Assembly (NCBI GenBank): GCA_017405965.1
Contig: JAFQZK010000026.1
Location: 1-64,000, forward strand
Direction: 5' to 3'
DNA: 64,000 bases
Origin: Muribaculaceae bacterium
GTDB lineage: Bacteria > Bacteroidota > Bacteroidia > Bacteroidales > Muribaculaceae
Made by a program: the position numbers and the translations under genes. Positions within the stretch are counted from its first letter, which is position 1, and every line of letters begins with the position of its first letter. Below, piece by piece: positions 2,813-32,353 of this stretch. A model generated the notes under the pieces. That model worked only from the letters and a program-made list of their open reading frames with translations. It did not search any database and was not told where the DNA came from.

Positions 2813-3805
2813 TTACCATGAACCAGACAGCAGGTAGTCAATAAGGGAGGTGACGTCGCTGATGTTCACGCTGTTGTCCTGGTTGCAGTCGGCACCGCTC
2901 AGGCTGATACCCGAAGCATTGCCGCTAAGCAGATAGTCGATCAGGGTTGTCACGTCGCTGATGTTCACGTTGTTGTCGCCGTTCACGTCACCACGCAGGC
3001 CAGCGTTCTTGGCGGTGAAGTAGCCCGGGTTGCTGGGGCCGCCGTCGATGTGGGCGTAGGTCTTGTCCACATGGTTGGCATCATAGGTCGTGCCCTTACC
3101 GCCCACCAGGTTGGTACAGTTCTTGAACATATCTGTGGAACTGGTAACGGCATTCGTACTCCAACCACTTCCGGCATAGATGGTTGTCAGGTTGCGGCAA
3201 CCATAGAACATATATTCCATATTAGTCACCTTGGACGTGTTAAAACCACTCAAGTCAAGGCTCGTCAAGCCTGGGCAAAAGTTGAACATGCTATACATAC
3301 TAGTCACCTTGGACGTGTTGAAGTGGCTTACATCTAGGCTCGTCAAGCCTGTGCAAAAGTTGAACATGCTAGCCATATTGGTCACCTTGGACGTGTTGAA
3401 GTGGCTCAAATCAAGACTCGATAATTTAATACAGGCATCGAACATAAAAACCATATTGGTCACCTCGCTGGTGTTCAGGTACTCCATGCCCGTGATGGAT
3501 TGAAGGTTCTGCATGTTAAAGAACCATTTGTGGGTCGTCGTCGGGCGGGCACCAGCGAACGAGGTGGCAAAGACCACTTTGGTCACATTGTAATAGGAGC
3601 CGTCAGCTCTCCAACCAGGATTGTTGGTGCCCGTGTTCAAGTCGTAGGTGGTGCCTGTGCGGCTGCTGCGGTAGTTGTCGTAGTAGAACGTCAGCGTCGT
3701 GTTCGACGACGTGTAGCAGGCATAGGCCTCGGCAGCAGTAGCGCCGAGGGCACACATCATGGCCGCCACCAGGACGGCTAGTTTGAAAAGTAGTTTCTTG
3801 CTCAT
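2813..3805 (-). CDS. BspA-like (DUF285) surface protein with dockerin tail
   Basis: The 330-residue exported protein has a signal peptide at about 1-24 ending AATAA. Residues about 85-215 contain four to five 24-25-residue repeats of the form FNTSKVTNMxxMFxxCxxLTSLDL, the DUF285/BspA-type leucine-rich repeat found in surface proteins of Bacteroidetes, Mycoplasma and lactobacilli. The end (about 268-330) is a dockerin-like double Ca-binding motif (GDVNGDNNVNISDV, DCNQDNSVNISDV), nearly the same as in the downstream LRR protein. A -7 box sits about 70 bp upstream. Probable roles are adhesion or ligand binding at the cell surface, inferred from the family only. Confidence 0.85.
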   Translation of the reverse strand: MSKKLLFKLAVLVAAMMCALGATAAEAYACYTSSNTTLTFYYDNYRSSRTGTTYDLNTGTNNPGWRADGSYYNVTKVVFATSFAGARPTTTHKWFFNMQNLQSITGMEYLNTSEVTNMVFMFDACIKLSSLDLSHFNTSKVTNMASMFNFCTGLTSLDVSHFNTSKVTSMYSMFNFCPGLTSLDLSGFNTSKVTNMEYMFYGCRNLTTIYAGSGWSTNAVTSSTDMFKNCTNLVGGKGTTYDANHVDKTYAHIDGGPSNPGYFTAKNAGLRGDVNGDNNVNISDVTTLIDYLLSGNASGISLSGADCNQDNSVNISDVTSLIDYLLSGSW

Positions 3806-7738: not shown

Positions 7739-8734
7739 TTATTTGCCAACTTGAGATTTGCCTTGACGCAATTTTTCACGTAGTCGATCTCGTGTTCCCT
7801 GATAATACACATGGTGCTTGTCTTGGCCATAGTGATCTTCCCCCTTCAATACAGCGAAAGACGCTGGGTCTGCTCCCTCTACTATGTTGTTTTTGTAATA
7901 GACACACTTGGAATCAACTGCATAGAATTCATTTAAAACCTTAAACGTGCGGTAATCACCTGCTGACACGGCTCTATTATATGTATTGCCAACGATACCG
8001 AGATAATAGACCTGAAGGCTATCTAAAGCCCAATTACTGTCAATCAGTCTGAAACTTCCCATATTTGCCACATGGAGAGGCACTTTTCCCTTGTAGTAAT
8101 CGTGTGCGTCATGAGCAAGAGCAAAACCAAGAGACAAAATATCGCTATCTGGTAAGACAAAAGTGGCAGGATCTGCTCCTTCTATCATATTGTAATGAAA
8201 CCACACATGGTGCATATCGGCTGCATAATCAACGCTCAGGGCTTTGAATGTACTTGGGTCTGCCCCTTCCAATATCTTATAGCTTGAATTAAACCTATAA
8301 TAAACATGGTTAACATCGAATGTATACAATTCGTTTAGGCGTTTATAGGTCGAAGGATCATAACCTTCAGGTTTACTTTCGACGAATGAAATTGATGCGA
8401 GTGTTAGAAACAGGAAGAAAACAGCCACAGGTATGAATGGGCACAAATTGAACAGCCATGTCCTTCCCAGTTTTTTGGAAAGTATAAACCACAACCTTAT
8501 TAATGGAATCAGATAGATCGGGTAAAGCCAGATGGTGCATGCTGCACCCAAACGGCAAAAATCGTCGATAGAGGATCGGGTTGGCGCATCCCAGAAAAAA
8601 AAGGACCCAAATAAACCTATCGGCCAAAATAACAGCGCTAGAAACATCATCTGGACAACGGTTTTCTGGTCTGGTGTAGGCTGTTCTCCCAAAATACGAG
8701 CAATCAGTCCTTTTGATTTAGTTTTCTGGTCCAT
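7739..8734 (-). CDS. DKNYY-repeat membrane protein
   Basis: The 331-residue protein has three predicted N-terminal membrane segments (about 27-49, 60-80, 96-115). A region of repeated units from about 125 to 315 follows. Each unit has a Tyr/Phe-rich strand such as DxxHVYYxxxxIEGADPxTFxxLxxxYAxD. This matches the DKNYY family, seen in many Gram-negative species and of unknown function (for example SKCVYYKNNIVEGADPASF). The repeats should form a beta structure outside or beneath the membrane. The gene stands alone with its own promoter. Function is unknown. Confidence 0.8.
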   Translation of the reverse strand: MDQKTKSKGLIARILGEQPTPDQKTVVQMMFLALLFWPIGLFGSFFFWDAPTRSSIDDFCRLGAACTIWLYPIYLIPLIRLWFILSKKLGRTWLFNLCPFIPVAVFFLFLTLASISFVESKPEGYDPSTYKRLNELYTFDVNHVYYRFNSSYKILEGADPSTFKALSVDYAADMHHVWFHYNMIEGADPATFVLPDSDILSLGFALAHDAHDYYKGKVPLHVANMGSFRLIDSNWALDSLQVYYLGIVGNTYNRAVSAGDYRTFKVLNEFYAVDSKCVYYKNNIVEGADPASFAVLKGEDHYGQDKHHVYYQGTRDRLREKLRQGKSQVGK

Positions 8735-8863: not shown

Positions 8864-8871
8864 TACTTTTG
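8864..8871 (+). promoter_or_regulatory. -7 box in front of the cobalamin riboswitch
   Basis: TACTTTTG fits TAnnTTTG and ends about 14 bp before the aptamer, where the transcript of the TonB-CbiK operon should begin. It is the only visible promoter for this operon. Confidence 0.6.
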
Positions 8872-8884
8872 CGGCGTAATAATG

Positions 8885-9056
8885 GTAATCGGGTGGCTTA
8901 GGGCCATCGCGATGCAAGGGAATCCGGTGAAAGTCCGGAACTGTACCTGCAGCTGTAATCCCCTCAAAACACAGGGTTTGCTTACTGAATGTCACTGGCC
9001 GACAACAAGGCTGGGAAGGCAAAGCAGACCGGGGAAAAGTCAGAAGACCTGCCATT
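8885..9056 (+). ncRNA. Cobalamin (adenosylcobalamin) riboswitch
   Basis: The conserved core of the class-I cobalamin aptamer is readable in order. AAGGGAATCCGGTGAAAGTC and GGAACTGTACCTGCAGCTGT form the B12-box region, TCACTGGCC and CTGGGAAGGC the central arm, and GTCAGAAGACCTGCC the 3' conserved strand. Spacing between blocks is normal for the family. It sits between a -7 promoter box and the TonB receptor gene at 9182. It should therefore repress TonB receptor - CbiK - TonB receptor expression when cobalamin is plentiful. The expression platform is not a clear terminator; translational control near the start codon is likely (inference). About 125 nt separate the aptamer from the start codon. 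Confidence 0.93.
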
Positions 9057-9106
9057 TCAGTTAATAGTTACTGGTTAACAGTTGATAGTTGGTTTTGCGA
9101 ACTATT

Positions 9107-9148
9107 GAGACTGGAAACTAGGGGCTAGAGACTAAAAACTATTTAGTA
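9107..9148 (+). repeat. Heptamer repeat tract in the riboswitch leader
   Basis: Six consecutive degenerate heptamers (gagactg, gaaacta, ggggcta, gagacta, aaaacta, tttagta) lie between the aptamer and the TonB receptor start. They belong to the same family as the tracts at 22.15, 23.43, 25.4 and 31.07 kb. Confidence 0.65.
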
Positions 9149-9181
9149 CGTTCACTCAGGAACAGGTGTGACGGAAAGCAA

Positions 9182-11326
9182 ATGAAGAAAAGAAAAAGAC
9201 TGACGGCAGCAGTGCTGGCTTTATGCACGTTTGCGGCTGTCAATGGACAGAATGACATCTGGCGGCAGGATAGTCTGCCCGAGGTGGTGGTAACGGGTAC
9301 TGGCACTCAGCACCTGCTGAAGGATGCGCCCGTACAGACCGAGGTGATCACGAGCAAGATGCTGCGCAACTATGCGGGCAAGAGCATCGAGGATATCCTG
9401 GGCGGCCTCACGGCGTCATTTGCCTTTAACCAGGACGATATGGGCTCGCAGATGCAGCTCAACGGCCTGGGCAACAGCTATATCCTGATTTTGATTGACG
9501 GCAAGCGCATCCACGGCGACGTGGGTGGGCAAAATGACCTGTCGCTGATTGACCCGCAGAACATCGAGAAAATCGAGATCGTGAAGGGTGCCTCGAGCGC
9601 GCTCTACGGTTCGGACGCCATTGCCGGTGTGGTCAACATCATCACCAAGAAGCACCGCGAGGAAGGCCTGCTGATTGAGAACACGACGCGCGTGGGCAGC
9701 TATGGCGACGTGCGCCAGCACAATGGCTTGGCGCTGAATTACGGCAAGTTCAGCAGCTACACCAACTTCCAGCTGCAACACAGCGACGGCTGGCAGAACA
9801 CCTCGATCGAGCATACCGAGGGTTCGGAAGAGCCCATCACCGACTCCCGCAACAAGACCGTGAACCGCCACACCAACTGGCAGATTGCCGAACGGTTGAC
9901 CTATCAGCCGACCAAGAACTTGGAACTCTATGCCGACGGCAGCACCTACTGGAAACGCATCTACCGCGTGAGCGGCCGCCATCCCCACTACGACGTGAAG
10001 ACCTGGGACATGGAGTACCACAACGGCTCGGCATCCATCGGCGGCAAGTGGAGCCGTTCAAAGACCGACTACATTTCGCTGGATGTGGACTGGCACCGCC
10101 ATGCCTACTATTACTATTACACCGCCACGACACTTGTCGAGGACTACGAGAAGAGCACGGGCACACCTTATTACCCTTACTTCCCGTATCTTCCTGACCA
10201 GAAAGAGTTGCAGAGTGACCAACAACGCACAATGGCGGCGTTGAAGGGCGTGTTTACCCTACCCTACGAGAACATTCTGAGTGCCGGTGCGGAATTCCGC
10301 TATGACTGGCTCCATGCCCCCACCCGCGTGAAGGGCGGCAAGGCCAGCGACTGGACGGCGGCCGTGTATGTGCAGGACGAGTTCAACCTCATCCACAACG
10401 TGAACATCACCGCCGGATTGCGCTTGAATCAAAATGAGCAGTTCGGCACCAAACTGGCACCCAAGGTGTCGGCCATGTGGAAACCAGGCAACGCTTGGCG
10501 CTTGCGTGCCACCTGGAGCCAGGGCTTCAAGACGCCAGCCATCCGCGAACTGTTCTACCGCTATGTGCGACAGATGAGCGGCACCTACCTCTATCTCGGA
10601 AACACTGACCTCAAGCCACAGTCGAGCAACTATTTCTCGGTGAGCGGCGAGTACGGTTGGAGGGGCTTGAATGTGACCGTCACTGGTTACTATAATAAGG
10701 TCAAGGACATGATAGCCCTGGTGACCATCCCCAACTATCAGGCCCCCGACGAGTACATCATCCAGTATGATCCCGTCAAGACGCGCCAGTACCAGAACAT
10801 CGAGGACGCCAAGACCTACGGCGTTGACGTGAACGTCAATTACCAGTGGCGGGAGTTCGCCTTCGGCCTGGGCTACAGCTACCTGGACACCGATGCCAAC
10901 CAGTATGACACCAACCACGACAAGATGCACAAGGTCACCATCGACGGCACGGCCCACCACAAGGGCAACTGGTTCGCCACATGGGGTCACCGCTTCTCGG
11001 CCGACTACCGATTGGGCGTGGGCATCTATGGCCGCATGTCGAGCACCCGCTATTACCAGGACGACGGCAACGGCAAGGGCTACCAGACGTGGCGCCTGTC
11101 CACCACCCATGACCTGGGTCACTTCAAGGCGACCACCTGGCGCATAGAGGCCGGTGTTGACAACATCTTCAACTACTGCGACCGCACGCCTCACGGCTTG
11201 CACCTGGGTACGACCACCCCGGGACGCACAGGCTATGTGTCGCTGACCATCTGCTTCAACCAAGGAAAGAAACTTTCTAATAAGTATAAGTCTAACTATA
11301 AACAACAAAACAATGATGAAGATTAA
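9182..11326 (+). CDS. TonB-dependent outer-membrane receptor, probable corrinoid/tetrapyrrole transporter
   Basis: The 714-residue protein has a signal peptide (about 1-22, ending VNGQ) and a likely TonB box within LPEVVVTG. The plug domain lies at about 40-150, with typical motifs LNGLGNSYILILIDGKRI and VKGASSALYGSDAIAGVVNI. The rest is a TonB receptor beta barrel ending in an aromatic-rich strand. The cobalamin riboswitch directly upstream makes uptake of cobalamin, a precursor corrinoid or cobalt-tetrapyrrole the best inference (BtuB-like). Its stop overlaps the start of the CbiK lipoprotein gene by 14 bp, implying translational coupling. Unlike SusC it has no SusD partner and no N-terminal carboxypeptidase-like extension. 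Confidence 0.92.
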   Translation: MKKRKRLTAAVLALCTFAAVNGQNDIWRQDSLPEVVVTGTGTQHLLKDAPVQTEVITSKMLRNYAGKSIEDILGGLTASFAFNQDDMGSQMQLNGLGNSYILILIDGKRIHGDVGGQNDLSLIDPQNIEKIEIVKGASSALYGSDAIAGVVNIITKKHREEGLLIENTTRVGSYGDVRQHNGLALNYGKFSSYTNFQLQHSDGWQNTSIEHTEGSEEPITDSRNKTVNRHTNWQIAERLTYQPTKNLELYADGSTYWKRIYRVSGRHPHYDVKTWDMEYHNGSASIGGKWSRSKTDYISLDVDWHRHAYYYYYTATTLVEDYEKSTGTPYYPYFPYLPDQKELQSDQQRTMAALKGVFTLPYENILSAGAEFRYDWLHAPTRVKGGKASDWTAAVYVQDEFNLIHNVNITAGLRLNQNEQFGTKLAPKVSAMWKPGNAWRLRATWSQGFKTPAIRELFYRYVRQMSGTYLYLGNTDLKPQSSNYFSVSGEYGWRGLNVTVTGYYNKVKDMIALVTIPNYQAPDEYIIQYDPVKTRQYQNIEDAKTYGVDVNVNYQWREFAFGLGYSYLDTDANQYDTNHDKMHKVTIDGTAHHKGNWFATWGHRFSADYRLGVGIYGRMSSTRYYQDDGNGKGYQTWRLSTTHDLGHFKATTWRIEAGVDNIFNYCDRTPHGLHLGTTTPGRTGYVSLTICFNQGKKLSNKYKSNYKQQNNDED

Positions 11327-12407
11327 ATCTTTATTGATTGCCATGATGGCAATCTGCCTGACCATGGGCTTCACCTCTTGCAACGATGACAAGGATGATC
11401 CCGTTGAGAACAACTACACTATTTACCAGAAAGCCGTTACTCAGACCGTTAAGTCGCAGAAGAAGAGCGACAAGGTTATCCTGCTGGTGGCCTTCGGTTC
11501 GACCTGGGAGCAGGCCTACAACGCATTTGATGCCACTGTAGCCGCTTACAAGCAGGCCTTCCCCGGTTATGACGTGTTCCTGTCATTCTCGTCGGCCATC
11601 TGCATCAACCGCGCAGCTGCCGGTGAGAACGTTGACCCCCGCAACTTCTATGCACCTCCCTTCTGGCTCAACGCCTTTGCCGAGGTTGAGTACATGGAAA
11701 TCGTCGTACAATCGCTGCAGGTGATTCCCGGTGAGGAATATACCCGCGTGATCAACTACATCAAGGACTTTGCCAACAACGCCAACGGTGACATCAGCGA
11801 CAAGTACCTGTCGATCGTTGACCTCAAGCTTGGTGTGCCCCTGTTGCAGGATGCCGAGAGTGACGTCAACCTCGTTGCCAGCGAGTTGAACAAGCTGTAC
11901 AGCAGGCAAGCCAATGAGGGTGTTGTTGCCTTTATGGGCCACGGTAACCCCGACTCCTATGACACCTATAAGGCCAACGTGCGCTACACTCAGCTCGAGG
12001 AGGCCCTCCAGCAGTTCAACAGCCACTACTTCGTGGGCACAGTTGACATGATGGACAACTTCAAGACCGACGTCTATGAGCGCATGGTTGCTGCCGGTTT
12101 CACCAGCGGTAAGGTGTATTGCCACCCCCTGATGTCGATTGACGGTGACCACGGTCACAACGACATGGCTGGTGACGATGACGACAATTGGGACGGCGTG
12201 AAGTTCACCCCCAATGATGAGGGTGAGGTTGAGGACACCTCCTGGAAGATGTACTTCCAGCACCTGGGTTATGAGTGCAACAACTCGACCATGATCGAGA
12301 AGGGTCTGCTGGAGCTGCCCAGCATCCGTCAAGTGTGGATGAACCACACCCGTGACGCCATCAACGGCGATCCCCTCGACTTCTACCACAGCAAGAATCC
12401 CGAGTAA
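11313..12407 (+). CDS. cbiK: Exported CbiK-like cobaltochelatase lipoprotein
   Basis: The 364-residue protein belongs to the anaerobic sirohydrochlorin cobaltochelatase CbiK family (VILLVAFGSTW, FSSAICINR, MGHGNPD). The two family metal-ligand/catalytic histidines are present: H210 in GHGNP and H271 in CHPLMSIDGDHGHND. Their 61-residue spacing matches known CbiK proteins. Unlike the cytoplasmic Salmonella enzyme it has a lipoprotein signal (lipobox FTSC, Cys23) followed by an Asp-rich linker, so it is predicted to be membrane-anchored outside the cytoplasm. The gene overlaps the upstream TonB receptor by 14 bp and precedes a second receptor. A related arrangement, Porphyromonas IhtA/IhtB, has a CbiK-like haemin-binding lipoprotein. 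Here it may insert or remove cobalt, or bind a tetrapyrrole for import; that is inference. Confidence 0.88.
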   Translation: MMKIKSLLIAMMAICLTMGFTSCNDDKDDPVENNYTIYQKAVTQTVKSQKKSDKVILLVAFGSTWEQAYNAFDATVAAYKQAFPGYDVFLSFSSAICINRAAAGENVDPRNFYAPPFWLNAFAEVEYMEIVVQSLQVIPGEEYTRVINYIKDFANNANGDISDKYLSIVDLKLGVPLLQDAESDVNLVASELNKLYSRQANEGVVAFMGHGNPDSYDTYKANVRYTQLEEALQQFNSHYFVGTVDMMDNFKTDVYERMVAAGFTSGKVYCHPLMSIDGDHGHNDMAGDDDDNWDGVKFTPNDEGEVEDTSWKMYFQHLGYECNNSTMIEKGLLELPSIRQVWMNHTRDAINGDPLDFYHSKNPE

Positions 12408-12417
12408 ATTGACAATA

Positions 12418-12476
12418 AGGTCCTTAGGGTCCCTAAAGACCTTAAAGTCCTTAAAGTCCCTAAGGACCTTAAAGAA
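12418..12476 (+). repeat. Nonamer tandem tract
   Basis: About six degenerate 9-nt units related to CCTTAAAGT (ccttagggt, ccctaaaga, ccttaaagt, ccttaaagt, ccctaagga, ccttaaaga) fill the gap between the CbiK gene and the second TonB receptor. Confidence 0.7.
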
Positions 12477-12488
12477 TAAAACTAAGAA

Positions 12489-14555
12489 GTGATTAAGAGA
12501 ATCATATTGATTTCAGTAGCACTCCTCACGGGGAGTGCTGCTGTTTCACAAATCCACAAGATGGAACGCAGCGACTCGTCGATGACGAGCCGCGTTTATA
12601 CCTTAAATCCCGTAGTCGTGACCGGATCGGGTCACCACCAGCGCCTGAAATCCACCGCCACTCCAGTCCATGTGCTCAGCCGTCAGGAAATCAAGGAGCA
12701 AGGCATCACCACCTTTGACGCTGCATTGACCCGCATGATGCCGCAGGTGTCGATGGCACCCAACTCAATGGGCACGTTCTTGAGACTCAACGGACTGGGA
12801 AACAAGTATATTCTGATACTCATCAATGGTCAGAAACTGACGGGCGACATTTCCAATAATGTCGATTTGAACCGCATCAACATGGCGCGTGTGAAGCGCA
12901 TCGAGGTGCTTGACGGCGCCGCGTCGTCGCTCTACGGTTCGGATGCCATTGCCGGTGTCATCAACATCATCACCGACCAGCCCACACAGCAAATGGTGTC
13001 CCTTACCAGCGACACGCGCGTGTCGGGCCACGGCCAACTGACCGAGAACATCACCCTGGATATCTTCAAGAACGGTTTCGGCTCCTATACCTCGTTCTCG
13101 CGTGACCGGGCCGACAGTTACCGCATCAACGATGTGGAGTATGTCAAGGGTTCCGAAACCGAGACCCAGCCGACCATCGCCCCGTTCTTCACGGGCTACC
13201 GCTCAAATCTCATGGGGCAGAAATTCACCTATGCTCCCAATGAGCATCTGGCACTGAATGCCGGCATCGACTACTCCTACAAGATTACCGACCGCCCCAA
13301 CACCCGCAAGGACATCACCGGCGGCACCGACTACGAGATGCGCTACAAGGGGCTGCGCTGGAATGTGGGCGGTATCTACAAGTTCACGAGCCGCAACTCG
13401 TTGCAGGCCGACTTCACCGTTGACCGATTCCGCTACGGCAAGCAGTATGACGTGGCCACCAAGACCTATGCCATCGACGATTATGTGCAGTCCAAGAAGC
13501 AACGCTCGATGGAGGGCCAGTTGAAAGCTATTTTGGGGCTGATGAAGAACTCAACCACCATCCTCGGTGCTGACTGGCGTAAGGATTACCTCACCGCCAC
13601 TTCGGGCAACATCAACCAGAATGCCTATACGGCAGCCGCCTTTGCCCAGCATGAGATGTTGTTCTTTGAGCGATTGACCGCCACCGTGGGCCTGCGCTTG
13701 ACCTACCACGAGACCTTCAACTGGCACCTCACACCCAAAGCCACGCTGATGTATGCCCCTGGTAACTTCCGTCTGCGTGCCACCTATTCGGCGGGTTTCC
13801 GTGCTCCTGGCCTTGACGAGTTGTATTACCACTACTTCTCGGTGAACCGCGGCAAGGCGCAAATCATCTTCGGCAACAAGGAACTCAAGCCCGAGAAGAG
13901 CAACTACTTCTCACTCAATGCCGAGTACCGCAGCAATATCCTTGCCGTGAGTGTGACCGGATTCATCAACCGCATCAACGACATGGTCATCAGGGAGAAT
14001 ATCGATGTGGATGCCACCTCACTGGCCATGCTTCAAGCCGAATTCCCCGAGATGACCGATGACCAAGCGCAGAAACTCGAGCGCTACTCGCTGTATAAGA
14101 ACAGCGACAAGGGCGACGTCAAGGGCGTGCAAGTCAACGTCTCGGCCAATCTGTTCCAGGGCTTTAACCTGTCGGCCAACTACGTTTACACCTATGCCCG
14201 CACCTGCAGCGGCGACCAATGGACACCGCTGGAACGCAGCATCCGCAATGCCGCCACGGTGGCCGCAGATTATCACCACAGCTGGGGCAATTACGGACTG
14301 AACGTGAACATCAACGGCAGGTTGCAGTCCAAGACCTATTATCCTGACTACGAGGATGCACCAGGCTATGGCATCTGGAACCTGAACACGACCCACTCGT
14401 TCGACGGGTTGAAACATCTGTATCTGGAGCCGAGCATCGGCATCGACAACATCTTTGACAAGGTGGACCGCCGCATCGACTCCTCCAACCGCAAGTATGC
14501 CCTGTATTCCCCAGGGCGCATGCTCGTGATTGGTCTGAAATTGAGAATCAAGTAA
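12489..14555 (+). CDS. Second TonB-dependent outer-membrane receptor of the riboswitch operon
   Basis: The 688-residue receptor has a signal peptide (about 1-20), a probable TonB box in LNPVVVTG, and a plug domain at about 45-155 (LNGLGNKYILILINGQKL, LDGAASSLYGSDAIAGVINI). A TonB-type barrel follows to the C-terminus. The start used is GTG at 12489, which keeps the whole signal peptide (IKRIILISVALLTGSAAVSQ). It is similar in size and motif layout to the receptor at 9182, so the two are probably duplicated copies specialised for different ligands. The gene lies 81 bp after the CbiK gene, across a nonamer repeat, and ends at a strong terminator. It is probably under the same riboswitch. Confidence 0.9.
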   Translation: MIKRIILISVALLTGSAAVSQIHKMERSDSSMTSRVYTLNPVVVTGSGHHQRLKSTATPVHVLSRQEIKEQGITTFDAALTRMMPQVSMAPNSMGTFLRLNGLGNKYILILINGQKLTGDISNNVDLNRINMARVKRIEVLDGAASSLYGSDAIAGVINIITDQPTQQMVSLTSDTRVSGHGQLTENITLDIFKNGFGSYTSFSRDRADSYRINDVEYVKGSETETQPTIAPFFTGYRSNLMGQKFTYAPNEHLALNAGIDYSYKITDRPNTRKDITGGTDYEMRYKGLRWNVGGIYKFTSRNSLQADFTVDRFRYGKQYDVATKTYAIDDYVQSKKQRSMEGQLKAILGLMKNSTTILGADWRKDYLTATSGNINQNAYTAAAFAQHEMLFFERLTATVGLRLTYHETFNWHLTPKATLMYAPGNFRLRATYSAGFRAPGLDELYYHYFSVNRGKAQIIFGNKELKPEKSNYFSLNAEYRSNILAVSVTGFINRINDMVIRENIDVDATSLAMLQAEFPEMTDDQAQKLERYSLYKNSDKGDVKGVQVNVSANLFQGFNLSANYVYTYARTCSGDQWTPLERSIRNAATVAADYHHSWGNYGLNVNINGRLQSKTYYPDYEDAPGYGIWNLNTTHSFDGLKHLYLEPSIGIDNIFDKVDRRIDSSNRKYALYSPGRMLVIGLKLRIK

Positions 14556-14569
14556 CCTTATATTTTAAC

Positions 14570-14613
14570 ATGGAGGATTGTCGGGAGACTATGCCTCCAT
14601 TTTTTATTTTTTT
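14570..14613 (+). terminator. Rho-independent terminator of the TonB-CbiK operon
   Basis: A 7-bp stem ATGGAGG (14570-14576) and CCTCCAT (14594-14600) is followed by an almost pure T-run (14601-14613). It sits 15 bp after the receptor stop and separates the riboswitch operon from the cbi operon. Confidence 0.8.
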
Positions 14614-14631: not shown

Positions 14632-16080
14632 ATGGGTAAGATTATCGTAGCAGGCATCGGGCCTGGCAGTAAAGAAGACATCACTCCCGCCGTACTCGAC
14701 GCAGTGCGTGCGGCAGATGCCATTGTGGGTTATAAGTATTATTTCCAGTTTATTCAGGAATACGTGCAAGACGGTTGTGAGTGCATTGACACGGGCATGA
14801 AGAAGGAACGCGAGCGCGCTGAGCAGGCCTTTGAACTGGCCGAGCAGGGCAAGACCGTTGTGGTCATCTCGTCGGGCGATGCAGGCATCTATGGCATGAC
14901 ACCGCTCATCTATGAGATGAAACGTGAGCGCGGCTCTGATGTGGAAATTGAGTCGTTGCCCGGCATCTCGGCTTTCCAAAAAGCCGCCTCTCTCCTTGGC
15001 GCCCCCATCGGCCATGACCTGTGCATCATCTCGTTGAGCGACCTGATGACGCCCTGGGAAGTCATCGAGCGCCGCATCAAGGCTGCCGCCGTGGGTGATT
15101 TCGTTACCGCCATTTATAACCCCAAGTCCAATGGCCGCTACTGGCAACTGTACCGATTAGTGGAACTGTTCCTGCAGCAACGCCCAGCCGACACGCCTGT
15201 GGGCTATGTCCGTCAGGCGGGTCGCGATGAGCAGGAAATCAAGGTGACCACGTTAGGTGAATTTGACCCCGAGGACGTGGACATGTTCACCGTCATCCTC
15301 ATCGGCAACTCACAATCCTATATCTTCTCCCCCTCCTCCGCCCTTACGGGCACCTCCCCCCGGGCGGGGGAGGAGTATAAACTCATCATCACGCCTCGTG
15401 GGTATTACCGCGAGCAGCAAGACCAAGCCGTCAAGCCTCGCCAGCAGATCATGATTGAGTCGTTCCGCACCATCGAGAGCGAACTGCGCAACAAGGATAT
15501 ACCGCTTGACCATAAGTGGGCACTCCTGCACGCCATCCACACGACAGCCGACTTTGAGATGGAACGGATTCTCTATACCGATGAACGTGCTGTGGAAACG
15601 CTCTATAATAAAGTCGCTAATGGCGAAATCAAGACCATCGTGACCGATGTGACGATGGTGACCAGCGGCATCCGCAAGGGTGCGCTTACCCGATTGGGCG
15701 TAGAGGCCAAGTGCTACTTGAGTGACCCACGGGTAGCCGAGATGGCCACTGCTCAAGGCATCACCCGCACCCAGGCCGGCATCCGCCTCGCCGTCGAGGA
15801 GCATCCCGATGCATTATTCGCGTTTGGCAATGCGCCGACGGCACTGATGGAACTGTGTGACCTCATCCGCAAAGGCAAGGCTCATCCTGTCGGCATCATT
15901 GCCGCCCCCGTGGGTTTCGTGCATGTACGCGAGTCCAAACACATGGTCAAGCCGTTCAAGGAGATACCCAAAATCATCGTCAAGGGACGCAAAGGCGGCA
16001 GCAACCTTGCCGCAACCTTGTGCAATGCCATATTGACCTTTGACGATGCCGAACAACTTAAACCCGGACGCGATTTGTAA
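14632..16080 (+). CDS. cbiHC: Bifunctional CbiH (C17-methyltransferase) - CbiC (precorrin-8 methylmutase)
   Basis: Two cobalamin enzymes are fused in 482 residues. Residues 1 to about 240 are a tetrapyrrole methylase of the CobJ/CbiH type (IIVAGIGPGS, ISSGDAGIYGM, YNPKSNGR), which contracts the ring by C17 methylation. Residues about 270-482 are CbiC/CobH, precorrin-8X methylmutase (TDVTMVTSGI, FGNAPTAL, GFVHVRESK), which makes cobyrinate by methyl migration. The ATG at 14632 is preferred over an in-frame upstream start (14578) because the latter lies inside the terminator. The linker (about residues 233-248) is encoded by a GC-rich palindromic repeat. The gene is the first of four fusion genes on this strand. 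Confidence 0.9.
   Translation: MGKIIVAGIGPGSKEDITPAVLDAVRAADAIVGYKYYFQFIQEYVQDGCECIDTGMKKERERAEQAFELAEQGKTVVVISSGDAGIYGMTPLIYEMKRERGSDVEIESLPGISAFQKAASLLGAPIGHDLCIISLSDLMTPWEVIERRIKAAAVGDFVTAIYNPKSNGRYWQLYRLVELFLQQRPADTPVGYVRQAGRDEQEIKVTTLGEFDPEDVDMFTVILIGNSQSYIFSPSSALTGTSPRAGEEYKLIITPRGYYREQQDQAVKPRQQIMIESFRTIESELRNKDIPLDHKWALLHAIHTTADFEMERILYTDERAVETLYNKVANGEIKTIVTDVTMVTSGIRKGALTRLGVEAKCYLSDPRVAEMATAQGITRTQAGIRLAVEEHPDALFAFGNAPTALMELCDLIRKGKAHPVGIIAAPVGFVHVRESKHMVKPFKEIPKIIVKGRKGGSNLAATLCNAILTFDDAEQLKPGRDL
15327..15375 (+). repeat. Palindromic element inside the CbiH-CbiC linker
   Basis: This GC-rich block contains a CCC/GGG small stem and an 8-bp stem CCTCCCCC (15353-15360) with GGGGGAGG (15366-15373). 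It looks like the CTCC-rich REP elements normally found between genes in gut bacteria, yet here it is read through in frame and encodes a Ser/Pro/Thr-rich linker between the two enzyme domains. Confidence 0.6.
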
Positions 16081-16157: not shown

Positions 16158-17366
16158 ATGAAATTTTATGTGATAGGTATCAGTGACGCGCCGCGGCCTT
16201 ACTTGCCGCCGGAGGTAATCAGTATCATCTGCAAAGGGCGCATTTTTTCGGGCGGCAAGCGCCATTATGGACTTGTCGCACCCTATTTGCCCGAAGGCTC
16301 CAAGTGGATAGACATCACCACGCCGTTGGATTCAGTTTTCGAGCAGTATCACGACGAGGTGATTGTGTTTGCCAGCGGTGACCCGTTGTTTTTCGGATTT
16401 GCCAACACCATCAAGCGCAAGATGCCTGATGCCGAGATTGTGATATTTCCGTCCTTCAACTCGCTGCAGTTGTTGGCACATCGCCTGGTGATGCCCTATC
16501 ACGATATGCGCATCGTCTCGTTGACAGGACGTCCCTGGCCCGAATTTGACAAAGCGTTGATTGAACGGGCCGAAAAAATCGGCGTCCTTACCGACCATGA
16601 GCATACGCCTTCTGAGATTGCCAAGAGGATGCTGGAGTATGGCTATATCGATTATCAGATGCATGTTGGCGAGCATTTGGGCAATCCCAAAGAGGAACGC
16701 ATCACAACCTTGTCGCTTGAGGAGGCTGCCGAGCAGGACTTCGGCTATCCTAATTGCTTGATTTTGTGCGGCCACGCCAAGGCGAGGCCCTACGGCATCC
16801 CTGAGAGCGAATTTACTTTGCTTGATGGCAGGGAGAAAATGATTACCAAAGCACCCATACGCCTGTTGACCCTGCAAGCGTTGGAATTGCCGAGGAAACA
16901 TGTCATGTGGGACATCGGCTTTTGCACTGGCAGCGTGTCCATCGAGGCACGCCTGCAATTCCCGCATCTTCACGTCGAGGCCTTCGAAATCAGGCCCGAG
17001 TGTGAGGCCTTAATACAGGAGAACAGCCGACGTTTTGGTGTACCAGGCATTAATTACCACATCGGGGATTTCCTTGAGGCAGATCTTGAAAACCTGCCGC
17101 GTCCCGATGCCGTTTTCATCGGCGGTCATGGCGGTCAGCTTAAGGAAATCATGGCACGCGTATTGACAGTCTTGACCGATGACGGATGCATCGTGATGAA
17201 CAGCGTCACCTCGCCAATGGTGCAGACCGACAGCCACCAACTGTTTAACGAGGCTTGTGCCGAGTTGGGCTTGACACAGGAAGCACCCACACGCATCATC
17301 CTGAACGACAATAACCCGATAGAGATACTGAAATGCAAACGAAAAACTACGAATTACACGCATTAA
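16158..17366 (+). CDS. cbiET: Bifunctional CbiE (C5-methyltransferase) - CbiT (C15-methyltransferase/decarboxylase)
   Basis: Residues 1 to about 210 form a tetrapyrrole methylase of the CbiE type (VFASGDPLFFGFANTI, FNSLQLLAHRL). Residues about 220-395 form CbiT, an AdoMet-dependent methyltransferase with the glycine-rich motif MWDIGFCTGSVSIEA. Together (equivalent to CobL) they methylate C5 and C15 and decarboxylate the C12 acetate of cobalt-precorrin-6B/7. The 402-residue length is normal for the fusion. The last seven codons (KTTNYTH) and the stop are encoded by the AACTACGAATT repeat at 17342, so the native C-terminus may have been altered by repeat insertion. Confidence 0.92.
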   Translation: MKFYVIGISDAPRPYLPPEVISIICKGRIFSGGKRHYGLVAPYLPEGSKWIDITTPLDSVFEQYHDEVIVFASGDPLFFGFANTIKRKMPDAEIVIFPSFNSLQLLAHRLVMPYHDMRIVSLTGRPWPEFDKALIERAEKIGVLTDHEHTPSEIAKRMLEYGYIDYQMHVGEHLGNPKEERITTLSLEEAAEQDFGYPNCLILCGHAKARPYGIPESEFTLLDGREKMITKAPIRLLTLQALELPRKHVMWDIGFCTGSVSIEARLQFPHLHVEAFEIRPECEALIQENSRRFGVPGINYHIGDFLEADLENLPRPDAVFIGGHGGQLKEIMARVLTVLTDDGCIVMNSVTSPMVQTDSHQLFNEACAELGLTQEAPTRIILNDNNPIEILKCKRKTTNYTH

Positions 17367-17403: not shown

Positions 17404-17423
17404 TTAATATAGTGAGAATTGAA

Positions 17424-19196
17424 ATGCAAAAGATAGCTGTTATCAACATCAGCGAGGAAGGCCGCCCTATTGCCGAAACGCTCCAACAGGAGTTCAAAGC
17501 CTCGGTCATCAAACGTGCCGATGTTGCCGACCGATGGAAAGACTTTGAAGCCTTCATCTTTATCGGGGCAATGGGCATCTGCGTGCGTACGATAGCGCCG
17601 TTGATCGAGGACAAACATACCGACCCGGCTGTCATCTGTACCGATAGCATGGGGTTGCATGCCGTGTCGGTTTTGTCGGGGCATGTGGGTGGCGCCAATG
17701 ACTTGACGCACAATGTGGCAGCAATCTTGGGTGCCGATCCCGTGATTACCACCCAGAGCGATAATGCCGGGTTGTGGGCACTGGATACGCTGGAAAAACG
17801 CTTCAACTGGTCCATCGCCAGCGAGGACGATATGAATGCGTGCATCTTCGCTTTTGTCAACCGCAAGCCCACAGCTTTGTTTATGGAGGTGCGTGACGAG
17901 GGTACCGATTATCTGGAAAAGACCCTACCCGACCACGTCACCATCATCAACGACCTGAGCGAGGCCGACCCCAAAAAATACCGCTTGCTCATTATGGTGA
18001 CGCCTTTCCGCCGCTATGCACCTGAGGGAATGCTATCCTTGCACTTTGTGCCTATGGTGGGCACTATCGGCTTTGGCTTGGCTCATCACCCCGAGGACTA
18101 CAAGTTCATCTATGACCAGATGGACGAGGTCCTTGCAGAATGGGGCATCCTGCCGTGCGCTTGCCTTTACTGCACGATTGACGTCAAGGCCGACGAGCCG
18201 TTTGTACATCTGTTGAAAGATGGCTATGACGAGGAAGTTGAATTCTTTACCGCTGAGCAGTTGGCCACCGTTGAGGTGCCTAACCCGAGCGACACGGTGG
18301 CCAAACACGTGGGCACGCCAAGCGTATGCGAGGCTGCAGCCATCCTGGGCTCCAATCACGGCAAATTGATTGTTCCTAAAATCAAAGGCAAGAATTTTAC
18401 CGTTGCACTGGCCATTGACCACAGGTACCTGCGTGACCAGCAAGGTCACATCGAGATTGTGGGTGCTGGCCCCGGTGATCCCGACCTGGTGTCGGTGCGA
18501 GGCCGCAAGATGCTGGAACGTGCTGACCTCATCCTCTATGCCGGTTCACTTGTGCCGCGTGAGCTGACCTTGTGCGCCAAGCCCGGTGCCGTCGTTCGCA
18601 GTTCGGCGGGCATGAATCTTGAAGAGCAATGCGAGCTGATGAAGGAGTTCTATGACCAGGGACGGTTCATCGTGCGCTTGCACACGGGCGACCCCTGCAT
18701 CTTCGGAGCGATTCAGGAACAGATGGCATTCTTTGACCAGCACAATATGCATTACCACATCACGCCGGGCATCTCGTCGTTCCTTGCTGCAGCAGCTGAA
18801 TTGCGCAGCCAGTTTACCATTCCCGAGCGCACACAGACCATCATCCTGACGCGCGGCGAGGGCCGTACACCCATGCCCGAGAAGGAGCAACTGCATTTGT
18901 TGGCTAAAAGCCAAAGCACAATGTGCATCTTCCTGAGTGCTGCCATCGTGGATGACGTGCAGCGAGAGTTGCTCATGGAATATCCCGAGGATACGCCCGT
19001 TGCCGCTTGTTACCATCTCACCTGGCCCGACCAGCGCATCTATCGCGGCGTGCTGAAAGACCTGGCCAAGATTGTCCATGACAATAACCTCACGTTGACC
19101 ACGATGCTTGTCGTGGGCGAAGCCATCGACAACCGCAAGGGCCTGTCGGAACTCTATAACAAACATTTCACGCATTTGTTCAGAAAGGGGAGTTGA
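17424..19196 (+). CDS. cbiGF: Bifunctional CbiG (cobalt-precorrin-5A hydrolase) - CbiF (C11-methyltransferase)
   Basis: About residues 1-335 are CbiG, with its N-terminal motif IFIGAMGICVRTIAPL, the LSGHVGGANDLT segment and a C-terminal CbiG domain (ETPSVCEAAAIL-like region). CbiG opens the delta-lactone and releases acetaldehyde. Residues about 345-590 are CbiF/CobM (VGAGPGDPDLVSVRG, LHTGDPCIFGA, TPGISSFLAAAA, LTRGEGRTP), the C11 methyltransferase acting just before. The fusion therefore joins consecutive steps. The ATG at 17424 is chosen over GTG 17412. It lies 57 bp after cbiET in the same orientation. Confidence 0.9.
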   Translation: MQKIAVINISEEGRPIAETLQQEFKASVIKRADVADRWKDFEAFIFIGAMGICVRTIAPLIEDKHTDPAVICTDSMGLHAVSVLSGHVGGANDLTHNVAAILGADPVITTQSDNAGLWALDTLEKRFNWSIASEDDMNACIFAFVNRKPTALFMEVRDEGTDYLEKTLPDHVTIINDLSEADPKKYRLLIMVTPFRRYAPEGMLSLHFVPMVGTIGFGLAHHPEDYKFIYDQMDEVLAEWGILPCACLYCTIDVKADEPFVHLLKDGYDEEVEFFTAEQLATVEVPNPSDTVAKHVGTPSVCEAAAILGSNHGKLIVPKIKGKNFTVALAIDHRYLRDQQGHIEIVGAGPGDPDLVSVRGRKMLERADLILYAGSLVPRELTLCAKPGAVVRSSAGMNLEEQCELMKEFYDQGRFIVRLHTGDPCIFGAIQEQMAFFDQHNMHYHITPGISSFLAAAAELRSQFTIPERTQTIILTRGEGRTPMPEKEQLHLLAKSQSTMCIFLSAAIVDDVQRELLMEYPEDTPVAACYHLTWPDQRIYRGVLKDLAKIVHDNNLTLTTMLVVGEAIDNRKGLSELYNKHFTHLFRKGS

Positions 19197-19291: not shown

Positions 19292-21049
19292 ATGATTCTC
19301 GTATTTGGTGGAACGACCGAGGGTCGCGTGGCGGCCAAGGTGCTCGATGAATCGGGTGCCTCCTATTGGTATTCCACCAGAGGCGACCTGCAGGATATTC
19401 AACTTGCACATGGACAACACGTCATCGGAGCCATGGAGGTGCCCGAGATGGTTACTTTCTGCCATGAGCATGACATCCGCTTGATTGTTGATGCCGCACA
19501 TCCGTTCGCCGTCAATCTGCACCGTAATGTCGTCAATCTTGCAGGGCAGATTGGCGTGCCAATCATTCGTTATGACCGCATCTTTCCGCACCACGACGAG
19601 GATATCGTATGGTGCAGGGACTATGATGAAGCCATCGCCCAATTAAAAGCGCAAGGCGTTCATCGTCTGTTAGCACTTACGGGAGTCAATACCATCACAA
19701 AACTGCGTGATTACTGGCAGGTCCATGACTGTTGGTTCCGCATCCTGAACCGTGACGAATCATTGACTGGAGCGCAGAAGGCCGGTTTTCCCGTTGACCG
19801 CCTCGTTTATTACGAGAAAGATGATACCTCGGCGTTGATTGAGCGACTGAAGCCCCAAGCCATGATTACCAAGGAAAGCGGCTTGAGCGGCGGCTTCAGT
19901 GAGAAAGTCGATGCGGCTCGACAAGCGGGAATCAAGGTTTTTGTCGTGGAAAGGCCTGAATATCCTACGGCAGATGGGGTGACCGTCCATCACGTCAATG
20001 GCCCTCACGGCCTGCGTCGAATGGTGGAGAAACTGCTGCCCGAGTTTTATCCCCTGCATAGCGGCTTGACCACAGGCACCTGTGCCACGGCGGCTGCTAT
20101 TGCAGCAACAACACGCATGAAAACGGGTGAAACAACACCCTCGGTGCCCGTCATCTTGCCCAATGGCGAGACCATTGAGGTCGAAGTCATCTATGGTGAC
20201 GGTTATGCTGCCGTATTCAAGCAGGCCGGTGATGACCCTGACGTGACCAACGGTATTGAGATCAGGGCCAGCGTCGAACCCAGCAATAAGTTTGAAATAC
20301 ATGGCGGCGATGGTGTCGGAAAATTCACGGTGCCTGGATTCGACTTCCCTCCGGGCGAGTCCGCCATCAACAAGGCTCCGCGCCAAATGATGCTAGATAA
20401 CATCAAGGAGAACGTCAGCATCACCATCAGCGTTCCCCAAGGCGCCGAAATTGCCCGCCGCACCTTCAACCCGCGACTGGGTATCGAGGGTGGAATCAGC
20501 ATCATCGGGGTGACAGGCATCGTGAAACCTTTCAGCGAGGAGGCTTTCATCAGCAGTATCCGCAAGTGCATGCAGGTGGCTAAGGCTTCGGGCAGCGATC
20601 GTGTGGTCATCAACAGCGGCGGCAAGAGTGAGCGCTTTGTAAAAGCGCAATACCCCGACCTGCCGCAGCAGGCCTTTGTGGAATACGGGAATTACATCGG
20701 CGAGACCTTGTCCATCGCCAATGAACTTGACATCAAAAACATCACCATGGGGGTGATGTTGGGCAAGGCAGTGAAACTCGCGGCAGGTAACCTCGACACC
20801 CACAGCCGTCACACGACAATGGACAAAGATTTCGTCATGAGCATGCTTCATGAGGCAGACATTGACATCGATATCAGCGACCTCACTCTCGCCCGCGAAC
20901 TGTGGGAGAGAATTCCCCATGAAAAACTCCAGAACTTCGCTACAGTTGTCATCAGCCACTGCAACCGGTACTGCGCCCCCCTACTCCCCAACGGCAATCT
21001 CACCATCCTCCTCATCACCGACAACGGCACGATTTTCAAACAACAATAA
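19292..21049 (+). CDS. cbiJD: Bifunctional CbiJ (precorrin-6A reductase) - CbiD (C1-methyltransferase)
   Basis: Residues 1 to about 245 match CbiJ/CobK, the NAD(P)H-dependent cobalt-precorrin-6A reductase (ILVFGGTTEGRVAAKVL, VDAAHPFAVNLHRNV, TKESGLSGG). Residues about 250-585 match CbiD, the cobalt-precorrin-5B C1-methyltransferase (HSGLTTGTCATAAA, IPQGAE-like VPQGAEIARRTFNPRLGIEGG, GISIIGVTGIVKPFSEEA). The two act in successive steps. It ends the plus-strand cbi run and converges with btuC. The C-terminus (about 550-585) reads as normal CbiD. Confidence 0.9.
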   Translation: MILVFGGTTEGRVAAKVLDESGASYWYSTRGDLQDIQLAHGQHVIGAMEVPEMVTFCHEHDIRLIVDAAHPFAVNLHRNVVNLAGQIGVPIIRYDRIFPHHDEDIVWCRDYDEAIAQLKAQGVHRLLALTGVNTITKLRDYWQVHDCWFRILNRDESLTGAQKAGFPVDRLVYYEKDDTSALIERLKPQAMITKESGLSGGFSEKVDAARQAGIKVFVVERPEYPTADGVTVHHVNGPHGLRRMVEKLLPEFYPLHSGLTTGTCATAAAIAATTRMKTGETTPSVPVILPNGETIEVEVIYGDGYAAVFKQAGDDPDVTNGIEIRASVEPSNKFEIHGGDGVGKFTVPGFDFPPGESAINKAPRQMMLDNIKENVSITISVPQGAEIARRTFNPRLGIEGGISIIGVTGIVKPFSEEAFISSIRKCMQVAKASGSDRVVINSGGKSERFVKAQYPDLPQQAFVEYGNYIGETLSIANELDIKNITMGVMLGKAVKLAAGNLDTHSRHTTMDKDFVMSMLHEADIDIDISDLTLARELWERIPHEKLQNFATVVISHCNRYCAPLLPNGNLTILLITDNGTIFKQQ

Positions 21050-21108: not shown

Positions 21109-22140
21109 CTACTCGTAGGAGGTTTTGCGGCGGCGGTAGAGGACGTAGATGATGATGGGGGCGCCAATGAGGGCAGTGACGCTGTTGACGGGCATGGCAC
21201 CCTCGAAGCCGGGAGCCCGGGCAATCAGATTACATATTAAGGCCAAAGCCGCGCCACACAAGGCGGTGGCGGGCATCAGTTTCCAGTGGTCACTGGTGCG
21301 GAAAATGCCGCGGGCAAGATGGGGTACGGCCATACCGATGAACATGATGGGACCGCAATAGGCGGTGACGATAGCGACCAATGTGCCTGAGCAAATGATA
21401 ATCCAAGTGCGAGCCCGCTTGACGTTGACACCCAGGTTGGCTGCATAACGGTCACCGAGCAGCATGGCATTCAGGGGCTTGACTAGCAGAAAACTCAAGG
21501 GCAGCAGGATGCACATGAGCACGACAAAAAGTATCATCTGGTCACCCGACACGCGCGAGAACGAGCCGAGTCCCCACACGACGAATGCTTTGACGTCTTC
21601 CTCGGGACTGAGGAATTTCAAGACACCGATAATGGCGGTGGCCAGGTAACCGATCATCACGCCGATAATCAGCAAGGTGACGTTGCCCTTGACTTTACCC
21701 GAAATCCACACAATCAGCATCATCACGGCGATGGCACCGATGATGGCGGCAACCGAGACGGCGGCATCGCCCAGATAGCCAAGGCTACTCAAGGCCACAC
21801 CGCCCAACTGGCCAGACAGCAGCACAACGAAAGCCACACCCAGGCTGGCGCCATTGGAGATACCCAAGATGGACGGTCCTGCCAACGGGTTGTGGAAGAT
21901 GGTCTGCATCATCAGGCCGCTCACGGCAAGGCCAGCACCAGCCATGATGGCGGTGAGCACCTGCGGCAGACGGGAACTGAGGATGATATTGGTCCAGATT
22001 TCATTTTCGCTGCCCTGACCGACAAGGATGCGGCAGATGTCGCGCACCGGAATCTCAATCGAACCGATGAACAGGTTGACAATCACCATCACGGCAATGA
22101 CCACCACAAGGGCCAACATCAAAGGCAACGTTCGTCTCAT
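21109..22140 (-). CDS. btuC: FecCD/BtuC-family ABC transporter permease
   Basis: The 343-residue polytopic inner-membrane protein has about nine to ten hydrophobic helices. It carries family signatures GPSILGISNGASLGVAF, LLGDRYAANLGVNVKRAR and FIGMAVPHLAR, the last near the cytoplasmic ATPase-coupling region. It belongs to the BtuCD/FecCD/FhuB group that imports cobalamin, siderophores or haem. It lies 113 bp after the binding-protein gene within a cobalamin locus, so cobalamin import is inferred. No BtuD ATPase follows it: the DNA downstream is the convergent cbiJD gene. The ATPase must be elsewhere or shared. Confidence 0.88.
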   Translation of the reverse strand: MRRTLPLMLALVVVIAVMVIVNLFIGSIEIPVRDICRILVGQGSENEIWTNIILSSRLPQVLTAIMAGAGLAVSGLMMQTIFHNPLAGPSILGISNGASLGVAFVVLLSGQLGGVALSSLGYLGDAAVSVAAIIGAIAVMMLIVWISGKVKGNVTLLIIGVMIGYLATAIIGVLKFLSPEEDVKAFVVWGLGSFSRVSGDQMILFVVLMCILLPLSFLLVKPLNAMLLGDRYAANLGVNVKRARTWIIICSGTLVAIVTAYCGPIMFIGMAVPHLARGIFRTSDHWKLMPATALCGAALALICNLIARAPGFEGAMPVNSVTALIGAPIIIYVLYRRRKTSYE

Positions 22141-24850: not shown

Positions 24851-24874
24851 TTAGGGCCTCGCCTTGGCGTGGCC
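24851..24874 (+). repeat. Short GC-rich element shared with 53.81 kb
   Basis: AGGGCCTCGCCTTGGCGTGG plus CCG occurs here between cobC and cobU and again, nearly identical, at 53812. Its core GGCC...GGCC can fold on itself. Confidence 0.5.
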
Positions 24875-24892
24875 GACAAACAGAGATACTCG

Positions 24893-25408: not shown

Positions 25409-25527
25409 CAGTGAACAGAGAACAGTGAACAGTTAACAGTTAACAGTGAACAGTTAACAGAGAACAGTTCTAGAAAATCTAGAGCATCTAGAATATCTAG
25501 GGGCTAAGGACTAAGGACTAAAGAAAA
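25395..25527 (+). repeat. Long heptamer tract starting inside the cobU 3' end
   Basis: Nearly 130 bp of heptamers: CAGTGAA, CAGAGAA and CAGTTAA units, then TCTAGA-rich units, then ggggcta, aggacta, aggacta. The first units encode the cobU C-terminus and stop; the last lie just before the cobT ATG. Confidence 0.8.
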
Positions 25528-28036: not shown

Positions 28037-28054
28037 TTCAGTTATTTGTCTAAC

Positions 28055-32345: not shown

Positions 32346-32353
32346 ACAAACCG

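Follow-up and report, generated by a model that had tools for sequence, protein, structure and literature searches.

A CbiK-family lipoprotein between two TonB receptors, behind a cobalamin riboswitch and next to a truncated corrin pathway, in a Muribaculaceae bacterium

Contig JAFQZK010000026.1 of a Muribaculaceae bacterium raises the question of what a protein of the CbiK chelatase family does with a lipoprotein signal, between two TonB-dependent receptors and behind a cobalamin riboswitch, in an organism that is apparently unable to make the B12 ring from scratch. The locus was analysed within a 64-kb stretch of the contig, here called the window. The reading that is tentatively preferred, at a little below an even chance, is that of a B12-repressed outer-membrane system acquiring a precursor of the corrin ring, in which CbiK at the surface would most likely insert cobalt and a truncated pathway would finish the ring. 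The strongest clue is this truncated corrin pathway, found in a genome in which no CbiL, uroporphyrinogen methyltransferase, HemB, other CbiK or CbiX was detected.

The riboswitch unit and its lipoprotein

The cobalamin riboswitch aptamer (RF00174, positions 8866-9070, + strand) was matched with 82.8 bits (E 6.9e-19, model complete from 1 to 189) and is the sole Rfam match across the window at gathering thresholds. It is followed on the same strand by TonB1 (9182-11326, 714 amino acids), a TonB-dependent receptor with Plug and beta-barrel domains, by the CbiK-family lipoprotein (11313-12407, 364 amino acids), whose start overlaps the stop of TonB1 by 14 bases, and by a second TonB-dependent receptor, TonB2 (12489-14555, 688 amino acids, GTG start), recognized by a domain match. 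A terminator-like hairpin with a T-run follows at 14570-14612 (+; -14.4 kcal/mol, z -3.6, with none of 200 shuffles equally good), and the riboswitch unit therefore probably ends after TonB2. A preliminary description of this DNA had proposed that a cobalamin riboswitch heads a unit of TonB receptor, CbiK-like lipoprotein and TonB receptor, which is borne out by the Rfam and domain matches; the hairpin fits the end given to that unit, and the receptors, described as non-identical, share 31% identity. Neither receptor reached the cut-off of the BtuB model TIGR01779 (599.7; TonB1 126 bits, TonB2 157 bits), a model outside which Bacteroidota receptors may fall.

The lipoprotein matches PF06180 with 142.7 bits against a cut-off of 26.2. 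Among solved structures its sequence best matches FetB (9b86, 99.3 bits), followed by CbiK-P (2xvx, 75.8) and Salmonella CbiK (1qgo, 58.9), and it is through such matches that the fold is assigned. Counted along the alignment, H145, E89 and H207 of Salmonella 1qgo, which we take to be its metal ligands, correspond to H210, E142 and H280 of the window CbiK. H210 and H280 are invariant in all 79 full-length sequences (the window and 78 relatives, from an alignment of 80 rows minus the fragment L154), and across 78 CbiKs of all kinds both histidine columns are kept in 78 and the E142 column in 77. Position 271 is histidine in 62 of the 79 sequences, alanine in 13 and another residue in 4. H271 was rejected as a metal ligand because it varies, whereas H280 is invariant and aligned with Salmonella H207. 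Of the two metal histidines named earlier, H210 is retained and H271 is replaced by H280, so that the spacing of 61 becomes 70. That the H/E/H site is conserved speaks for a protein that handles metal.

A signal sequence and a lipobox with Cys23 are present at the N-terminus, as had been described, and none of the 79 full-length sequences lacks the cysteine; a few relatives (e.g. L139) have a cut or shifted CbiK start. At least three of the residues +2 to +6 after the cysteine are acidic in 66 of 79 sequences, compared with a background of 4.7% among stretches of five residues taken from the mature proteins. These residues are N-D-D-K-D in the window CbiK and SDDDD in many relatives, and SDDDD is reported as the consensus of Bacteroides fragilis surface lipoproteins (PMC5080379; this and all later citations draw on excerpts of the published texts). 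The window CbiK is probably tethered to the cell exterior, with surface exposure predicted; the export claimed for it earlier is upheld on the sequence grounds of Cys23 and the acidic positions. The equivalog NF047852, which describes the biosynthetic sirohydrochlorin cobaltochelatase, was not reached (107.3 bits versus a cut-off of 400), and the lipobox also argues against a cytoplasmic location.

In a maximum-likelihood tree of 78 CbiK domains, with many near-identical relatives left out, FetB (PDB 9b86) and mostly lipoprotein CbiKs form one clade of 38 rows with a support of 100/98, and the group of the window CbiK is nested within it. Since FetB is presumably IhtB of Porphyromonas gingivalis, the likeness to IhtA/IhtB that had been pointed out is confirmed by this placement. 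Two rows of the FetB clade are exceptions: the protein of G302 lacks a signal, and one copy of G276 has a signal but no lipobox by the pattern used. The G302 protein (locus L261), from a HemB-positive genome, is the only signal-less one among the clade rows whose start was examined. The other clade comprises CbiK-P, Salmonella CbiK, signal-less CbiKs of family f25 and mostly Sec-type CbiKs, with the lipobox pattern in G532, G535 and G057.

A scan of public genomes yielded 79 loci, mostly from metagenome-assembled genomes of rumen Bacteroidales. TonB1 lies directly upstream of CbiK in all 75 testable loci, and a TonB receptor is located at most 2 kb downstream of CbiK in 70 of 78. Of the 62 loci of at least 12 kb, 56 carry cob or btu genes. 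The riboswitch precedes TonB1 in 14 of 15 scanned loci, the contig of the fifteenth starting inside TonB1. That this CbiK copy is tied to cobalamin supply, also suggested before, agrees with the riboswitch, the adjoining cob genes and their co-occurrence. TonB2 is more variable among relatives (down to 31% identity); it shares 40-44% identity with the receptors that accompany a Sec-type CbiK elsewhere in its own family, in other genera. A TonB1-like receptor with a lipoprotein CbiK recurs in two genomes of family f79 (TonB1 identity 47-48%, and an identity of 38%). At L263 of this family the pair adjoins CbiHC and a gene whose best NCBIfam match is CbiL (116 bits, short of the curated cut-off), with genes between them that are CbiGF- and CbiET-like as named from their sequence.

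Related arrangements were seen elsewhere. L121 (302-12665) carries two cobalamin riboswitches and tandem units, the first with TonB1 and lipoprotein CbiK and the second with a TonB receptor, a 436-amino-acid lipoprotein, a Sec-type CbiK and a CobN-like protein of 1290 amino acids. In other genera of the family (L071, L074, L076) a strong cobalamin riboswitch (93-117 bits) precedes a receptor-like gene, a lipoprotein of 423-424 amino acids, a Sec-type CbiK, a CobN-like protein of ~1295 amino acids and BtuF/BtuC-like genes, receptor and CobN being named by appearance; the L074 lipoprotein had no NCBIfam match.

Truncated corrin pathway and location of the chelatase

Behind the hairpin, four fusion genes were identified on the + strand: cbiHC (14632-16080; C17-methyltransferase and precorrin-8 methylmutase; TIGR01466, 312 bits), cbiET (16158-17366; TIGR02467 and TIGR02469 over cut-off), cbiGF (17412-19196; TIGR01465, 344 bits) and cbiJD (19292-21049; TIGR00312, 326 bits). 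The ratio of nonsynonymous to synonymous substitution rates (dN/dS) between the window and four relatives was 0.03-0.13 over seven genes and 0.04-0.13 for the cbi genes, with two CbiET comparisons saturated; against the two relatives that are more distant, dS is mostly above 1. The cbiHC-ET-GF-JD genes are under purifying selection.

In the genome of the window (3.6 Mb, 96.3% complete, 40 contigs) the window CbiK is the only CbiK found, and no CbiX and no HemB were found; HemB was found in none of 18 family genomes. The four TP_methylase matches of this genome are CbiHC, CbiET, CbiGF and one RsmI-like gene, presumably RsmI by its sequence, and neither CbiL nor uroporphyrinogen methyltransferase is among them. 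CbiK occurs in 40 of 225 family genomes, 22 of which belong to the same genus as the window. A TP_methylase survey of 40 family genomes (33 CbiK-positive) identified cbi methylase genes in all 15 CbiK-positive genomes examined of the 22 in the genus and in none of 7 CbiK-negative ones; in other genera of the family cbi genes were found in 13 of 18 CbiK-positive genomes. None of the 28 cbi-holding family genomes had a match of the strength of CbiL or uroporphyrinogen methyltransferase, apart from at most one single-domain gene each. This gene was assigned to RsmI from its size and the number of matches, and in the window's genome from the sequence itself.

Several candidates for a hidden CbiL or uroporphyrinogen methyltransferase were considered. 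Weak PF00590 matches (30-38 bits) were seen in G057, G164, G171, G176, G180 and G189, of which G164 and G180 are CbiK-negative, and G080 gave a single match of 23 bits; these were left unassigned. A 279-amino-acid match in G541 turned out to be a CbiH that lies at the end of a contig and shares 84% identity with that of the window; a similar match of 289 amino acids in G548 also lies close to a contig end. Among 34 further genomes with the locus, CbiL was found in one (G524, TIGR01467, 166.7 bits), which indicates that the search is able to detect it. Across the order, the CbiL model matched 25 of 295 genomes at 1e-15 (21 above 100 bits, 7 over the cut-off), all in other families.

The location of the chelatase was compared with the presence of HemB across the order, signals being judged by hydropathy and by lipobox. 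A signal-less CbiK or a CbiX was found in 9 of 11 HemB-positive genomes with a chelatase (signal-less CbiK in G302, G350 and G430; CbiX in G236, G280, G342, G386, G415 and G458, where HemB is a fragment) and in 0 of 22 HemB-negative genomes with CbiK. Fisher's test gave p = 1.4e-6 by genome (33 genomes) and p = 0.0014 by family (7 of 8 versus 0 of 7), with family f79 counted on both sides and relatedness only partly accounted for. CbiX matches in HemB-negative genomes were either the CbiK gene itself or had at most 22.4 bits (G343, G367), and the latter two were left unassigned. The count leaves out G318 (HemB-negative, CbiL-positive, no CbiK match), G161 and G175 (no CbiK), and the HemB-negative, CbiK-positive genomes G041, G080, G143, G184 and G193, which were not part of the CbiX search; G298, G282 and G304 were not covered by the HemB search. 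Only exported chelatases where HemB is missing would be expected of cells that obtain the ring from their surroundings and metallate it ahead of entry.

Proposed mechanism and rival explanations

In the proposed mechanism, low cobalamin would permit, through the riboswitch, expression of both TonB receptors and the CbiK lipoprotein. The CbiK of the FetB clade, predicted to face outward, would hold a tetrapyrrole from outside the cell within its class II chelatase fold and, most likely, insert cobalt through H210/E142/H280. The ring might then be handed to TonB1, the constant partner of CbiK, for import, and a BtuF/BtuC-type transporter would carry it inward from the periplasm, where a BtuC-like FecCD permease (21109-22140, - strand) and a BtuF-like periplasmic binding protein (22254-23366, -) are the candidates from the domain scan; they lie 6.6-8.8 kb from the riboswitch unit on the opposite strand, and no ATPase gene was identified among the genes scanned; in the Iht system the ABC transporter (IhtCDE) belongs to the unit. 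CbiHC, CbiET, CbiGF, CbiJD, CbiA, CbiP and the nucleotide-loop enzymes would complete the ring. Because CbiL is missing, the natural entry would be a 20-methylated ring such as factor III; CbiHC or some other enzyme might stand in for CbiL, and TonB2 may serve a second ligand such as cobinamide. What sequence supports in this proposal is the anatomy of the locus, the riboswitch, the lipobox, the metal site, the clade, the gene association, the purifying selection and the null gene searches.

Several points weigh against this proposal. Two genomes, G248 and G508, have HemB yet hold exported CbiK only, and weak CbiX matches occur in HemB-negative G367 (22.4 bits, barely over the cut-off) and G343 (21.6). 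Of the 34 further genomes, for which completeness is not given, seven have a second high-scoring CbiK (G515, G524, G531, G532, G535, G537, G540) and G542 has two copies of the lipoprotein CbiK; with a second whole CbiK in 8 of 34, the lipoprotein CbiK is therefore not always the sole one. Second CbiK-like pieces were also seen in G319 and G462. With CbiL missing, the pathway cannot begin at sirohydrochlorin unless a hidden enzyme substitutes, and the supply assumed instead, a rumen pool of factor III, is hypothetical. The position of Salmonella H83 is histidine in FetB and CbiK-P and Q136 in the window CbiK. No riboswitch was found at the Rfam threshold before the receptor of the TonB1-CbiK pair in family f79. 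Finally, the cbi genes probably form a transcript separate from the riboswitch unit.

This last point follows from the region between TonB2 and cbiHC. Among 40 relatives with a gap of less than 400 bases, a GGAGG...CCTCC hairpin was found in 21 and a promoter-like TAnnTTTG box, which we take to be the Bacteroidota -7 element, was found 5' of cbiHC in 28. Because of the hairpin and the box, the cbi genes are perhaps transcribed separately, and a single riboswitch operon reaching into them is unsupported in the genus of the window. In L102, L104, L129, L133, L153 and L159 the gap is just 18-29 bases, too short for such a terminator. A generic scan for promoters and terminators did no better than chance; it overlooked the hairpin, which has a loop that the scan disallows. 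The sequence of the hairpin (14570-14600 in the window, about GGAGG.TTGTCGTGAGACA..GCCTCC) is kept from the genus to some relatives at 70-76% CbiK identity (L114, L120, L134, L161), a conservation that exceeds the need of a plain terminator.

Surface capture of corrinoids without catalysis, in which the CbiK fold would have turned into a binding lipoprotein that, like Bacteroides BtuG/BtuH, feeds cobamides or cobinamide to the receptors, survives best among the alternatives and is considered only somewhat unlikely. The genome has a nucleotide-loop pathway by which cobinamide could be salvaged, the presence of two receptors points to two ligands, Q136 replaces the histidine of Salmonella H83, and cobamide loci of Bacteroides thetaiotaomicron join cobamide-responsive riboswitches, transport genes and B12-binding proteins (PMC8941943). 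However, pure binding has no need of three conserved metal ligands, and capture leaves unexplained the association with cbiHC-ET-GF-JD, the selection on these genes and the HemB pattern. Unlikely, a shade more so than capture, is the preferred proposal in its most specific form, by which part of B12 synthesis would be extracellular: a surface chelatase of the FetB clade would load cobalt into a scavenged ring that is already C20-methylated, such as factor III or a relative, import would run through a dedicated TonB receptor and a BtuFCD-type transporter, and the pathway would begin at CbiH.

The membership of the window CbiK in the clade of FetB also suggests a haem or porphyrin metal exchange at the surface, with removal or swap of iron, in which the cobalamin riboswitch would be a mere regulatory capture. 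IhtB has been presented as a lipoprotein that putatively binds haem and is believed to strip it of iron (PMC10913741), FetB is said in a review to insert manganese into protoporphyrin (PMC13402209), and since HemB was not found these organisms may need porphyrin. The riboswitch in the window and in the scanned loci and the cob/btu genes at most of the longer loci, in the proportions given above, make this improbable. Still less probable is a stripping of cobalt or corrinoids, by which CbiK would remove cobalt from, or re-metallate, damaged or metal-free corrinoids before import. IhtB has been called a putative ferrochelatase/reverse ferrochelatase (PMC13227078), and in other genomes an exported CbiK and an adjacent CobN-like protein share a cobalamin riboswitch; however, no CobN-like gene turned up in the window unit, beyond which none was searched for in this genome, and the direction of the reaction would have to be assumed. 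An ordinary cytoplasmic sirohydrochlorin cobaltochelatase with a misread N-terminus would suit the PF06180 match and the adjoining cbi genes but has next to no chance, given the lipid cysteine in 79 of 79 sequences, the acidic +2 to +6 positions and a cell in which no sirohydrochlorin supply was found.

Neighbouring genes and known systems

Late cobalamin pathway genes extend to about 32.7 kb of the window. The + strand carries cobS (23479-24261), a cobC-like histidine phosphatase (24316-24846) and cobT (25527-26570), all from the domain scan, and cobU (24869-25408), from a profile match. On the - strand, cbiB (27110-28066; profile match), a cobD-like aminotransferase (28098-29087; domain scan), cbiP for cobyric acid synthase (29080-30561; 608 bits) and a PduO-type adenosyltransferase (30558-31058; profile match) are followed by cbiA, which consists of two overlapping open reading frames (ORFs) at 31153-32687. 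Both were identified by profile matches, the C-terminal half as a separate ORF (31153-31716) and the N-terminal half (31692-32687) with its domain from residue ~118 of the ORF; this is possibly a genuine two-gene CbiA. Among 27 relatives with both halves, these form a single ORF in 18 and lie in different frames in 6 (L115, L125, L126, L130, L135, L148); in L120, L134 and L161 a stop lies near the start of the match, which may stem from an over-long query. Other genes of the window encode a DKNYY-repeat protein directly upstream of the riboswitch on the opposite strand (7739-8734, -), a Peptidase C10 of the streptopain type with an Inhibitor_I69 domain (35907-38951, +, 1014 amino acids) and a DUF285 repeat protein with a terminal type I dockerin-like domain (2813-3805, -).

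A literature search, mostly outside subscription journals, found in the texts it reached no description of a unit of riboswitch, TonB receptor, CbiK lipoprotein and TonB receptor. Its parts are known in kind, as Iht/FetB, riboswitch-controlled uptake and exported CbiKs are in print; new is their combination with a corrin pathway that lacks its start. Criteria for pathway reconstruction let CbiK stand for cobalt insertion during B12 synthesis (PMC6593275), and reconstructions relying on CbiK may ascribe to such organisms a step in the cytoplasm that is missing there. If the proposal is true, unfinished corrin precursors would be a traded good in the rumen, and in its most specific form cobamide cross-feeding would run via a ring not yet contracted, at a stage beyond the precorrin-2 that has been proposed for P. 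gingivalis.

P. gingivalis likewise retains corrin enzymes without the early steps. Its corrin pathway reportedly lacks precorrin-2 synthesis (Roper 2000), and why the corrin enzymes are kept is an old puzzle, restated in PMC6461909. Exported-only chelatases where HemB is missing offer a concrete, testable answer to this puzzle: the ring would be acquired from the surroundings and receive its metal outside the cell. The class of tetrapyrrole precursor salvagers was defined by Shelton et al., who note that P. gingivalis does without the steps leading to precorrin-2 (PMC6461909). Of the features in that definition, missing early tetrapyrrole genes are found here for HemB, whereas a complete corrin ring pathway is not, as no CbiL was found in the window's genome; because CbiL is missing as well, entry would be one step later than in P. 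gingivalis.

Among riboswitch-controlled systems, Hmu-like operons with CobN/BtuS resemble the window unit in their cobalamin riboswitch, TonB receptor and exported chelatase-like proteins (PMC10100974, PMC6460266). A role in cobalamin is suspected for Hmu-like operons with the riboswitch (PMC10100974), and the BtuS1 operon of B. fragilis holds a cbiK and its disruption had no effect on haem-iron use, cited as unpublished data (PMC6460266). The similar clusters described above have a Sec-type CbiK of the other clade and a CobN-like protein, whereas the window unit has neither. The BtuB-BtuG/BtuH loci of Bacteroides share the cobalamin riboswitch and a TonB receptor with a surface lipoprotein, which is a beta-propeller or DUF4465 protein there and a chelatase-type protein here, in which PF06180 was the only domain detected.

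Among the chelatases, Salmonella CbiK (1qgo) is cytoplasmic and feeds CbiL; it shares PF06180 and the equivalents of H145/E89/H207 with the window CbiK, which in contrast is predicted to be exported, in a genome where CbiL was not found. CbiK-P of Desulfovibrio vulgaris (2xvx), presumably periplasmic, is an exported protein of the class II chelatase fold with the same three ligands but belongs to the other clade, and to our knowledge no lipobox has been reported and no TonB partner is known for it. FetB/IhtB of P. gingivalis (9b86) is the closest, as the best PDB match and a lipoprotein of the same clade with a partner TonB receptor and an intact H/E/H site. It is linked instead, in the published excerpts, to haem and Mn-protoporphyrin, and the window unit differs from it by the cobalamin riboswitch, the two receptors, the adjoining corrin genes and Q136.

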